A stretch of DNA of 64,000 nucleotides from Actinocatenispora thailandica (GTDB lineage Bacteria; Actinomycetota; Actinomycetes; Mycobacteriales; Micromonosporaceae): the NCBI RefSeq assembly GCF_016865425.1, contig NZ_AP023355.1, positions 7,190,198 to 7,254,197 of the forward strand, given 5' to 3'. Positions 42,436-45,443 of the stretch are shown here, piece by piece. Below the pieces are notes generated by a model. The model did no database searches. It was not told the DNA's origin and saw only the letters and a program-made list of their open reading frames with translations. The position numbers and the translations under genes were made by a program. Position 1 is the first letter of the stretch; the number at the start of each line of letters is the position of its first letter.

Positions 42436-42807
42436 ATGGCAGGCATGGACAACACACTCGCACCGACCCTGGCGGTCCGCGACGCGGCCGCCGCCATCGA
42501 CTACTACCAGCGCGCCTTCGACGCCGCCGAGCTGAGCCGCTACCGGGACGACGGGCGCATCGTGCACGCGGACCTGTCGATCGGCGGCAGCGAGTTCGCC
42601 GTCAAGGACGCGGACCACGTCGATCCCGCACCGGACGGCGCCGTCTCGGTGATCCTGACGCTGCGGCTGCCCGACGTGGACGCCGTCTGGCAGCGGGCGA
42701 TCGACGCCGGCGGTACCGAGATCTTCCCGCTGAGCGACCACGAGTACGGCCGGATGGGCCGCATCGCGGACCCGTTCGGGCATCGCTGGATCCTCGCCGC
42801 CGCCTGA
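42436..42807 (+). CDS. VOC-family (glyoxalase-like) protein
   Basis: A 123-residue protein with two beta-alpha-beta-beta-beta repeats: LAVRDAAAAIDYYQRAFDAA near the start and RIADPFGHRWILA at the end. The PhnB-type members of this superfamily bind metal, but the function is unknown here. Start may be ATG 42436 or ATG 42445. It follows the AraC regulator by 43 bases. Confidence 0.88.
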   Translation: MAGMDNTLAPTLAVRDAAAAIDYYQRAFDAAELSRYRDDGRIVHADLSIGGSEFAVKDADHVDPAPDGAVSVILTLRLPDVDAVWQRAIDAGGTEIFPLSDHEYGRMGRIADPFGHRWILAAA

Positions 42808-43138
42808 CCGGCCGCGGTGGATGCCGGCGCCACCAGCGTGCCGTGCCGGCCCGGCGGCGCTGCGGCTGGCGCTGGCCGCGCCGCTGGCGCTGGCCGGTCG
42901 GCCGCGCTTGCCGAGCCGGCTGGCGCTGGCTGGACCGCTGGGGCGGGCCGGGGCTGGCGGCGCTGGCTGGACCGTTGGCGCGGGGCGGGGCGGGCGTGCT
43001 GGCCGGGGCGCCGCCACTCGAGGGTGGCGGCTCGGGTCTGGGTCACCAGTCGCGGCGTTCCGAGACGGCGTCCGGATCGCGGACCGTGTTCGGGGTGTCG
43101 TGGCGGGGTGACCGGCGGGCGTGGCAGAATCCCGGTTC
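42808..43138. repeat. Low-complexity spacer upstream of the poly-Cys leader
   Basis: From about 42840 to 42990 the word GCTGGCGCTGG and close variants recur in uneven steps. Translations are Ala/Gly/Arg-rich and are not believable proteins. CAGAAT at 43125-43130 may be the -10 box for a transcript beginning at about 43139. Confidence 0.6.
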
Positions 43139-43213
43139 ATGACGGACCTGCGCTGCACCGCGACCGGCCACGCGCCGATTGCCGCCGCCGCGTGTCCGTG
43201 TTGTTGCCGCTGA
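43139..43213 (+). CDS. Poly-cysteine leader peptide ORF (24 residues)
   Basis: ATG 43139 to TGA 43211-43213 encodes a 24-residue peptide with a Cys at position 6 and the end ACPCCCR, four Cys in five residues. There is no ribosome site, but CAGAAT ends eight bases before the ATG, so it may be the 5' end of a leaderless mRNA. Leaderless poly-Cys ORFs that act as cysteine-responsive attenuators are known in mycobacteria. Here it stands 56 bases before a PIG-L deacetylase gene, a family that includes mycothiol enzymes. Confidence 0.6.
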   Translation: MTDLRCTATGHAPIAAAACPCCCR

Positions 43214-43226
43214 TCTCCCGCGCCCC

Positions 43227-43244
43227 GCCCGGTCGTCGCCGGGC
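43227..43244 (+). promoter_or_regulatory. Candidate attenuator hairpin
   Basis: GCCCGG (43227-43232) pairs with CCGGGC (43239-43244) around TCGTCG, between the poly-Cys ORF stop and the deacetylase start. The stem is short and has no T-run, so a role in hiding the downstream start is as likely as termination. Confidence 0.35.
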
Positions 43245-43269
43245 TCCCGTCGAGTCAGTGAGCGTACCC

Positions 43270-44121
43270 ATGTCTTCGGCCCTCAGTGCCTCCCGCCCTG
43301 CCCGTACCGCGGCCTCCCGCCCTGCCCGTACCGCGCTGACCGGTTCGCCGGCCGCGCCCGACCTGTCCGGCCGCGCCGTCGTCGTCCTGCACGCGCATCC
43401 CGACGACGAGGCGATCTTCACCGCGGCCACCATGCGCCGGCTCGCCGACCGCGGCGCCCGGGTGGTCCTCGTCATGGCCACCGGTGGGGAACTCGGCGAA
43501 CAGCTCGCTCCGCTGCGGCCCGGCGAGTCCGTGCACGGCCGCCGGCTGGCCGAGCTGGAGGCCGCCGCGGAGCTGCTCGGCGTGTCCCGGCTGGTGCTGC
43601 TCGGCCGGCGCGACTCCGGCATGATGGGCTGGCCGTCGGCCCGGCACCCGCGGGCACTGGCCCGCGGCCGGACCGACCGGCTGGCCCGCCGGCTCGCCGA
43701 GGTCATCGACGCCGAACGGGCCGACACCGTGCTGCACTACGACGACCGAGGCATCTACGGACACCCCGATCACGTTGCGGTGCACCGGATCGGCGCGCTC
43801 GCGGCGGCCATGACCGGTGCCGTGTCGTACGAGGCGACCGTCGACCGGGACCACCTGCGCGGGCGCGGCGGTACCCACCTGATCGACGCGGCGAGCGGGC
43901 ACACCGGCGACTACGGCCGCGCCGGGTACGAGATTCCGGTGCGGCTGAGCGCGACCGACGCCGAACTCGCCGCGAAGCGGGCCGCGATGGCCGCGCACGC
44001 CAGCCAGATCGCGCCGGCGGCGGTCGGCGGCGACGGCTTCGCCGACACGTACCGGCACGAGTGGTACCTGACCAGCCACGCCCGGGGCATTCTCACCGAG
44101 CTGGCCGCCACTCCCAGCTGA
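43270..44121 (+). CDS. PIG-L family deacetylase
   Basis: Zinc-dependent N-deacetylase family that includes MshB and Mca of mycothiol metabolism. The 283-residue product has the zinc motif LHAHPDDEAIFTAA near residues 40-53 and the later HPDHVAVHR. Whether it acts on mycothiol precursors, conjugates or other sugars is not decided by sequence. The first ~35 residues are not conserved and include an exact 24-bp tandem duplication (43288-43311, 43312-43335). ATG 43270 or GTG 43258 may be the start. Confidence 0.85.
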   Translation: MSSALSASRPARTAASRPARTALTGSPAAPDLSGRAVVVLHAHPDDEAIFTAATMRRLADRGARVVLVMATGGELGEQLAPLRPGESVHGRRLAELEAAAELLGVSRLVLLGRRDSGMMGWPSARHPRALARGRTDRLARRLAEVIDAERADTVLHYDDRGIYGHPDHVAVHRIGALAAAMTGAVSYEATVDRDHLRGRGGTHLIDAASGHTGDYGRAGYEIPVRLSATDAELAAKRAAMAAHASQIAPAAVGGDGFADTYRHEWYLTSHARGILTELAATPS

Positions 44122-44189
44122 CACCGGCCCGGGGCGCCGCGGCTGGCGCCCCTCGTGGCCCTGCCCCGCCAGGGGTGTTGCTTGGCTGT

Positions 44190-44249
44190 CCTTTGCTCTG
44201 CGCACTTCAGCGCACCATCGGTGGTGCAGGTGAGTGCCCAGAGCAAAGG
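44190..44249. repeat. 60-bp nested palindrome
   Basis: Outer arms CCTTTGCTCTG (44190-44200) and CAGAGCAAAGG (44239-44249), middle arms GCACT/AGTGC, and inner arms GCACCA/TGGTGC (44212-44217, 44222-44227) form an almost continuous hairpin with loop TCGG. It follows the deacetylase by 68 bases, so it may end its transcript, but it is larger than a normal terminator. Confidence 0.8.
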
Positions 44250-44264
44250 GGCGCCGCAACAGGG

Positions 44265-44362
44265 CCGCGACCCGGCCGCGCCGCGATCCGGCCGGTCTGT
44301 GATCCGCGCCGCGATCCGGCCGCGCCGCGACCCGGCCGCGCCGCGATCCGGCCGGTCTGTGA
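44265..44362. repeat. Direct repeat of 38 bp with 60-bp period
   Basis: Exact copies lie at 44265-44302 and 44325-44362, with further partial copies of GCCGGTCTGTGA (44366-44377) and CCGCGATCCGGCC nearby. Nothing in the region codes for a believable protein. Confidence 0.9.
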
Positions 44363-44438
44363 CCCGGCCGGTCTGTGACATCGCCTACCGGCGGGGATGG
44401 CCGGGAAGCAGCCGGGGCCGTCGGGCGTTGCAGGTCAC

Positions 44439-45443
44439 GTGGCTGTGTCTGACGAGGTGAAACTGTCGGTGCTGGACCTGGCGCCGGTACCGGACGGATC
44501 GACGCCGGCCGACGCGTTGCGCAACAGCGTCGAGCTGGTACGACTGGCGGAGCGGCTCGGTTACCACCGGTACTGGGTGGCCGAGCACCACAACATGCCG
44601 GGCATCGCGAGTTCCTCTCCGCCGGTGCTGATCGGCCACCTGGCCAGCGCGACCGAACGGATCCGGATCGGCTCCGGCGGCGTGATGCTGCCCAACCACG
44701 CGCCGCTGGTGGTGGCCGAACAGTTCGGCATGCTGTCCGCGCTGCACGACGGCCGGATCGACCTGGGGCTGGGCCGCGCGCCCGGCACCGACCAGGTCAC
44801 CGCGCACGCGCTGCGGCGGGACGCTTCCCCGGCGGCGGACGAGTTCCCGCGCCAGCTCGGCGAGCTGATCGGCTTCCTGGACGGCGAGTTCCCGGACGAC
44901 CACCCGTACGCGTCGATCACCGCGGTGCCCGGCCGGGGCTACCGACCGCCGATCTGGCTGCTCGGCTCGTCCGGCTACTCCGCCCAGCTGGCCGGCGCGC
45001 TGGGCATGCCGTTCTCGTTCGCGCACCACTTCGCCGGCGACAACACGGTACCGGCGGTGGAGCTGTACCGCTCGTCGTTCCGGCCGTCGCCGGACCTGGC
45101 CGAGCCGTACGTGATGCTCGGGGTGTCGGTGTTCTGCGCCGACACCGAGGACGAGGCGCGCCGGATGGCAAGCTCCCAGGAGCTGTCGTTCCTGCAGCTG
45201 CGCACCGGCCGGCCCGGCCCGCTGCCGAGCCCCGAACAGGCCGCGAACTACCCGTACACGTCGCTGGACCGGCAGCTGATGGAGCAGCGCGGCCAGCACA
45301 CCGTCGTCGGCGACCCGAAGCAGGTCGCGGAGCAGCTGACCGAGCTGGTCGCCCGGACCGGCGCGCAGGAGCTGATGGTCACCACCCAGGCGTGGGACCA
45401 CGCCGCCCGGCTGCACTCGTACGAGCTGGTCGCCGGGCACTGA
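44439..45443 (+). CDS. LLM-class flavin-dependent oxidoreductase
   Basis: A 334-residue protein of the luciferase-like monooxygenase family. It starts the conserved region with [20 protein letters not shown], then [20 protein letters not shown] and [20 protein letters not shown], typical of the MsnO8/alkanal-type members. FMN or F420 use cannot be told apart. GTG 44439 is a reasonable start; GTG 44445 and an ATG at 44397 are alternatives. Confidence 0.9.

Follow-up and report, generated by a model that had tools for sequence, protein, structure and literature searches.

A conserved poly-cysteine leader ORF, probably a cysteine-sensing attenuator, precedes one clade of PIG-L genes

We examined a stretch of 64,000 nucleotides from Actinocatenispora thailandica (referred to here as the window) in which a short ORF rich in Cys codons precedes a gene for a PIG-L enzyme. 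From sequence comparison we consider it probable, at roughly 0.78, that this leaderless ORF of 24 codons senses cysteine and attenuates the PIG-L gene accordingly. An earlier note made from the letters alone had proposed a leader peptide at this site. That reading is well supported, because the ORF is conserved together with one PIG-L clade and its Cys codons are kept. A point against it is that PIG-L is not among the known sulfur genes.

Poly-Cys leaderless ORFs of M. smegmatis are reported as cysteine-dependent attenuators (Canestrari 2020, as recounted in PMC9031893, PMC9094748 and PMC13236596). Leader peptides with Cys runs have also been predicted upstream of the Mycobacterium and P. acnes cys operon and of B. 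longum cbs (PMC1262725), and a Cys-run leader with ribosome occupancy is described before cysA2 (PMC4633059).

Results

The leader ORF and its promoter

The ORF has the form of a poly-Cys leaderless attenuator: it is short, lies upstream of the gene on the same strand and has its Cys codons clustered by the stop, with the C-terminus A-C-P-C-C-C-R (Table 1). The earlier note had given a 24-residue ORF with this ending, a hairpin 13 bases past its stop and a PIG-L gene 56 bases past the same stop, and all of this is exact to the base. The start of the PIG-L gene is likely the ATG at 43270 since an in-frame GTG at 43258 is replaced by GCG in the sister species. The hairpin (GCCCGG-TCGTCG-CCGGGC) lacks a T tract and is thus not an intrinsic terminator, and no site resembling an intrinsic terminator was found between the leader and the PIG-L gene of the window. 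A search of Rfam with positions 42700–44500 gave 0 matches at the gathering score.

Table 1. Features of the leader and PIG-L region, in window coordinates.
Feature	Position	Strand	Basis
Extended –10 element, TG-G-CAGAAT	43122..43130	+	Sequence; TGN[CT]ANNNT conserved; start site predicted
Leader ORF MTDLRCTATGHAPIAAAACPCCCR, 24 codons from ATG at 43139 to TGA ending at 43213, predicted leaderless	43139..43213	+	Sequence; conserved 5′ of orthologues
Presumed regulatory codons TGT CCG TGT TGT TGC (Cys-Pro-Cys-Cys-Cys)	43193..43207	+	Cys position and UGU excess in 65 leaders
Left arm of predicted sequestering helix (end of Cys codons, Arg codon, stop)	43203..43213	+	Minimum-free-energy fold
Small G+C hairpin, nested in the predicted helix	43227..43244	+	Sequence, fold
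Right arm of predicted helix, 15 to 3 nt 5′ of the PIG-L start (ribosome-binding region; shorter in the contiguous-helix analysis)	43255..43267	+	Fold
PIG-L (LmbE-like) metallo-deacetylase or amidase, 283 aa	43270..44121	+	PF02585; NCBIfam; AlphaFold model

An extended –10 element stands before the leader: a TG and one spacer base precede CAGAAT (43125–43130), whose end lies 8 nt 5′ of the ATG. The pattern TGN[CT]ANNNT occurs 6–8 nt 5′ of the start in 58 of 65 leaders with at least two Cys compared with 0 of 2287 other ATG or GTG codons in the same loci, a count that is favoured by the choice of leader starts partly by –10 score among the in-frame starts. Transcription is predicted to start at or adjoining the leader ATG, and the spacing of the element is as expected for leaderless translation.

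The genome searched for the window species is a single contig of 7.43 Mb. It contains six exact matches to TGYTGYTGYCGNTGA, of which by eye only the one in the window is leader-like; this concerns those six sites and does not amount to a genome-wide exclusion. For 14 matches in this genome to the sulfite reductase, rhodanese and PIG-L families, inspection of 1500 nt upstream showed no poly-Cys leader. Judged from these 14 loci, the poly-Cys device has no obvious further use in the host.

Conservation of the leader with a PIG-L clade

The earlier note had staked its reading on conservation of the Cys codons in relatives, and they are kept. An upstream ORF with at least three Cys in its last 10 residues was found for 61 of 74 scanned PIG-L orthologues, which represent about six lineages (Actinocatenispora, RSA1, f10, Frankia-like f28, Jiangellaceae and Pseudonocardia) and are not independent, near relatives being counted many times. 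The scan covered ORFs of 10–45 aa lying between 420 and 40 nt upstream of the HAHPDD codons. The reverse strand of the same regions reached at least three Cys in 0 of 74 cases and Markov shuffles did so in 1.9% of 1480. The highest Cys count per orthologue was 0 in 5, 1 in 4, 2 in 4, 3 in 8, 4 in 28, 5 in 19 and 6 in 6 (n=74); on the reverse strand it was 0 in 43, 1 in 25 and 2 in 6. One orthologue that scored 0 in the scan (L011) has a leader about 362 nt upstream.

Orthologues were collected with a profile. At the level of the order, 29 of 397 genomes matched at E up to 1e-60; 15 of these, at about 1e-91 or better, were kept apart from the 14 weaker ones, which were treated as other PIG-Ls. 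At the level of the class, 24 of 394 genomes matched at E up to 1e-75, of which two had been collected before. Within Pseudonocardia, 59 of 62 genomes matched and the best 30 of the 59 were used as loci. Duplicates of the window (L125) and of L072 (L174) were excluded before the scan. From the 78 orthologues listed, four without a match to the HAHPDD motif were dropped (L069, L133, L138 and L204), and on inspection the first three do carry leaders.

The leader and the PIG-L gene occur together in Micromonosporaceae, Pseudonocardiaceae, Jiangellaceae and Frankia-like genomes. Orthologues in three genomes of the same genus and in RSA1 (67% identity) have the leaders MTDLRCTATGFAPIVAAACPCCCR (twice), MTYPRSIVTGPAPIVAAACACCCR and MMSAQLHRCPGQSARVAAARCCCRR. 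The leader recurs in Pseudonocardia, for example as MTDRTGFAGVSRCCPGCCRCCRCRS, in Jiangella anatolica as VNVLPTRTALAAVLGMPCCCRCR and in a Frankiaceae MAG as MTRELACRCSCCCCR.

As a control we scanned other PIG-L loci, of which 4 of 86 reached at least three Cys (87 were listed, L038 was dropped and five of the 86 are not in the tree). Two of the positives, both from Kineosporia (L083 and L100), fall inside the leader clade, leaving 2 of 84, 79 of them in the tree. In a FastTree phylogeny of 159 PIG-Ls the leader-bearing sequences lie within one clade of 76 rows with 99% local support, and the leader label needs 6 changes compared with 49 in shuffles. Because of this difference we regard the leader as a trait of one PIG-L clade. 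The two Kineosporia PIG-Ls show 38–43% identity and their upstream ORFs end CLGSCCRG and RCPVGCCPG.

Position and choice of the Cys codons

In the same 65 leaders, Cys occupies codons 2 to 6 from the stop at frequencies of 55, 65, 80, 58 and 55%, and the last codon at 2%. Attenuators use rare codons as sensing codons. UGU makes up 207 of 332 leader Cys codons (62%) compared with 9 of 98 (9%) in window genes (Fisher p 2.6e-22) and 2 of 23 in the PIG-L bodies (p 3.3e-7), the reference being genes of one genome picked by codon-position G+C plus only these 23 codons from PIG-L bodies. The sequence before the Cys run varies widely between lineages and the number of Cys ranges from 1 to 7. What is constant across lineages is the Cys run adjoining the stop and the excess of UGU.

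RNA folding between leader and gene

In the window, the predicted fold of 43187–43272 pairs the two arms listed in Table 1 around the small hairpin. This segment had a z of –2.19, with 4 of 200 shuffles as stable, and the region from the start of the leader to the PIG-L start (43139–43272) had a z of –1.82, with 9 of 200 as stable. A contiguous helix between the leader and the ribosome-binding site (RBS) of the window was no better than chance (p 0.587), and exchanging the window leader for those of other lineages left the pairing at 0.62 compared with 0.61 for the native one. Over 65 loci, the stability from leader end to PIG-L start averaged z –1.58 compared with –0.13 for a coding control and was lower than the control in 8 of 8 lineages, in the Frankia-like one by only 0.1.

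The pairing differs by lineage. In Jiangellaceae, Cys codons CCTGCTGT pair over 7–13 bp with ACAGCAGG, the Shine-Dalgarno region of the PIG-L gene at about –13 to –6. With PIG-L start codons assigned by rule rather than taken from annotation, contiguous helices at p up to 0.05 were obtained in 5 of 8 and 2 of 12 members of the two Jiangellaceae subgroups, in 1 of 6 f10 loci and 2 of 32 Pseudonocardia loci, and in none from Actinocatenispora (0/3), RSA1 (0/1), the Frankia-like genomes (0/2) or Kineosporia (0/1). When leaders were swapped among all loci, the native leader paired better with the RBS in 30 of 65 (p 0.92); by lineage, it did so in 19 of 20 Jiangellaceae, 5 of 32 Pseudonocardia, 3 of 6 f10 and 1 of 3 Actinocatenispora. 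In a test for long duplexes, which is saturated by G+C content, 4 of 65 loci had p no higher than 0.05. These tests gave no support for a helix between leader end and RBS that is common to all lineages. These predictions support hiding of the RBS in Jiangellaceae; in the window species this step is only plausible and in Pseudonocardia it is not supported.

The PIG-L enzyme

By sequence, the product of the downstream gene belongs to the PIG-L/LmbE-like metallo-deacetylases. It matches Pfam PF02585 at 93 bits (cut-off 28.2) and has the HxDD and distal His metal site. Residues H43, D45, D46, R92, D115, Y163, H165 and H168 are invariant in 30 orthologues. Aligned to the genome's own MshB, H43, D46 and H168 correspond to the Zn ligands, D45 to Asp15, Y163 to Tyr142, R92 to Arg68, D115 to Asp95 and H165 to His144. 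The MshB catalytic residues used for comparison are those named in a review of the PIG-L family (PMC4101496) and the correspondence of numbering is our own.

The AlphaFold model (mean pLDDT 91.2) is closest in the PDB to MshB 4ewl (Z 26.6, 2.8 Å over 236 residues, 33% identity), followed by a chitobiose deacetylase (Z 21.4). The enzyme is likely to be active, with a substrate of the N-acyl-glucosamine type.

The earlier note had taken the protein for a mycothiol-related deacetylase. This holds in part, in that the enzyme is MshB-like and keeps the catalytic residues. By contrast, it scores 121.6 bits with the MshB model (TIGR03445; equivalog cut-off 224.35) and 91 bits with the Mca model (TIGR03446; cut-off 277.15), and the six PIG-L matches in the genome include an MshB (336 bits) and two Mca (420 and 456 bits) encoded elsewhere. 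We therefore rejected the PIG-L behind the leader as the MshB or Mca of this species. Compared with MshB (PDB 1q74, 4ewl), which has the closest fold, it also has a shorter C-terminal half; with Mca, the mycothiol S-conjugate amidase, it shares the PIG-L domain and the metal-site residues.

The low-complexity N-terminal part of the PIG-L gene contains a perfect 24-bp tandem duplication (43288–43335). At the same site the sister species (G001) has, by eye, a longer repeat-rich stretch.

Gene neighbourhoods

We also looked at the genes downstream of PIG-L in the window and six other loci. In the window an LLM monooxygenase gene follows beyond an inverted repeat. In a Pseudonocardia locus (L060) the downstream genes are lnt, a glycosyltransferase and a phosphoribosyltransferase. 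The other loci have an adenosine deaminase on the other strand (L054), a GNAT (L046), a dienelactone hydrolase with a mycothiol-dependent-type protein (L058), a regulator with BrkB (L070) and, in L068, no matched family. Since these downstream neighbours differ, the leader and PIG-L look like a kept unit. Use of an operon partner as a clue to function was rejected for the same reason, as no pathway can be read from the seven loci.

The inverted repeat of the window lies just 3′ of PIG-L (44190–44249) and consists of 28-nt arms that are 79% complementary and 4 nt apart. It is possibly a two-way terminator, which would make PIG-L monocistronic. Degenerate direct repeats of the GCCGCGAYCCGGCC type lie at 44248–44382 between PIG-L and the LLM gene.

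Discussion

The most probable reading of these data is that the leader lets the supply of cysteine set the expression of the PIG-L gene. Transcription would begin at the leader ATG from the extended –10 promoter. When cysteine is ample, the ribosome would pass the Cys codons and finish the leader, upon which the RNA would close over the PIG-L ribosome-binding region, or a Rho site would be exposed, and PIG-L would stay low. When charged tRNA-Cys is scarce, the ribosome would pause at these codons, right before the stop, hold the RNA open and thereby allow PIG-L to be made. That the leader is translated and responds to cysteine, which way the control runs and which RNA step operates in the window species are all inferred from comparative evidence. 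Pairing of the sensing stretch with a downstream ribosome-binding region is described for translation attenuators in general (PMC13236596).

The step after leader translation could take another form. In a variant of the attenuator reading, which we hold to be a real possibility but not the favoured one, Rho-dependent or other termination of transcription past the leader takes the place of RBS hiding. The failure of RBS pairing in Pseudonocardia is consistent with this, as is the lack of an intrinsic-terminator-like site between leader and gene, and Rho has been suggested, weakly, for mycobacterial cys leaders (PMC1262725). By contrast, the complementarity of the Jiangellaceae Cys codons to the Shine-Dalgarno region argues for RBS hiding in that family.

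It is unlikely that the ORF is a truly translated attenuator that reads a signal other than cysteine, such as redox state, zinc, a ribosome-stalling drug or electrophile, or arrest by the nascent peptide. The PIG-L family includes detoxifying amidases according to its review (PMC4101496), and runs of UGU could, to go by the codon counts, pause ribosomes under several stresses. Nevertheless, Cys codons by the stop are the feature that the lineages have in common, and the poly-Cys leaders of M. smegmatis are described in review as dependent on cysteine availability.

Very unlikely, in our estimate, is a working peptide that partners the PIG-L enzyme, as a binder of metal or thiols or as precursor to a modified peptide, instead of an ORF whose effect is confined to pausing the ribosome in cis. 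Metal binding by Cys clusters such as CCPGCCRCCRCRS is conceivable and the peptide travels with the enzyme across orthologues, but the variable sequence before the Cys residues and their changing number, together with the UGU excess and the constant place of the run beside the stop, fit codon sensing better. Short ORFs are common at high G+C, yet a chance ORF or composition artefact is so improbable as to be negligible given 61/74 orthologues compared with 0/74 reverse strands, 1.9% of shuffles and 2/84 PIG-L loci outside the clade.

By its anatomy, the present leader resembles the mycobacterial poly-Cys attenuators, with a short ORF and clustered Cys codons 5′ of a gene, here leaderless by prediction. 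It differs from them in that its target is a PIG-L enzyme whereas theirs, as described, are cysteine-biosynthesis genes, in the families that carry it and in the UGU excess, which the cited accounts do not mention in the parts available. The leaders predicted in PMC1262725 similarly have Cys runs near the leader stop and no conserved terminator hairpin as far as that account goes; their target genes and taxa are others, and a conserved extended –10 and the Jiangellaceae Shine-Dalgarno complementarity are seen in the present set. Poly-Cys leaders are thus extended past the taxa named in the cited literature, to the extent that it was accessible. Among the literature matches listed, where subscription papers are thinly covered, there was no report of a poly-Cys leader that precedes a PIG-L gene.

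A cysteine-counting leader says much about the function of the enzyme clade behind it and would assign this MshB-like PIG-L, across several families of actinobacteria, to cysteine or thiol supply. The enzyme likely serves such supply because of the poly-Cys control that we infer for its gene. A more specific idea, which we offer as doubtful, is that enzymes of the PIG-L clade are induced by cysteine starvation and break down mycothiol or a cysteinyl pseudodisaccharide akin to it. The main thiol buffer of the cell would then double as a reserve of cysteine, opened through a poly-Cys attenuator with charged tRNA-Cys as its direct signal. Sulfate-starved Rhodococcus is reported to have lower mycothiol and a higher level of the precursor GlcN-Ins in early and mid-log phase, with mycothiol-making enzymes also more abundant (PMC8557817). 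The authors of that report favour use of mycothiol in detoxification and give its use as a source of precursors as their alternative. Their result is compatible with a cysteine store and is not evidence for this enzyme. Whether mycothiol can be drawn on for its cysteine could now be tested with a simple knock-out, and the promoter signature and rare-codon bias are usable for finding further targets.

Some members of the clade depart from the common pattern. No Cys-rich ORF was found in the scanned stretch of L014 and L128 (behind P450), L071 and L136. In two Pseudonocardiaceae genomes (G074 and G289) a clade PIG-L without a leader lies directly behind a P450 gene (L226 7145–9167 and L227 6922–9174), and no leader was found before the P450 gene in these two loci either. 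These P450-linked PIG-Ls look as if they were recruited into another pathway. Weaker members have two Cys in the last 10 residues (L070, L192, L195 and L201) or one (L016, L017, L065 and L137). In family f9, to which L016 and L017 belong, there is a related upstream ORF with a GTG start, the ending ...HHFDQRCR and TGTGG-type sequence upstream of it. It has a single Cys before the last codon and may sense weakly or sense something else.
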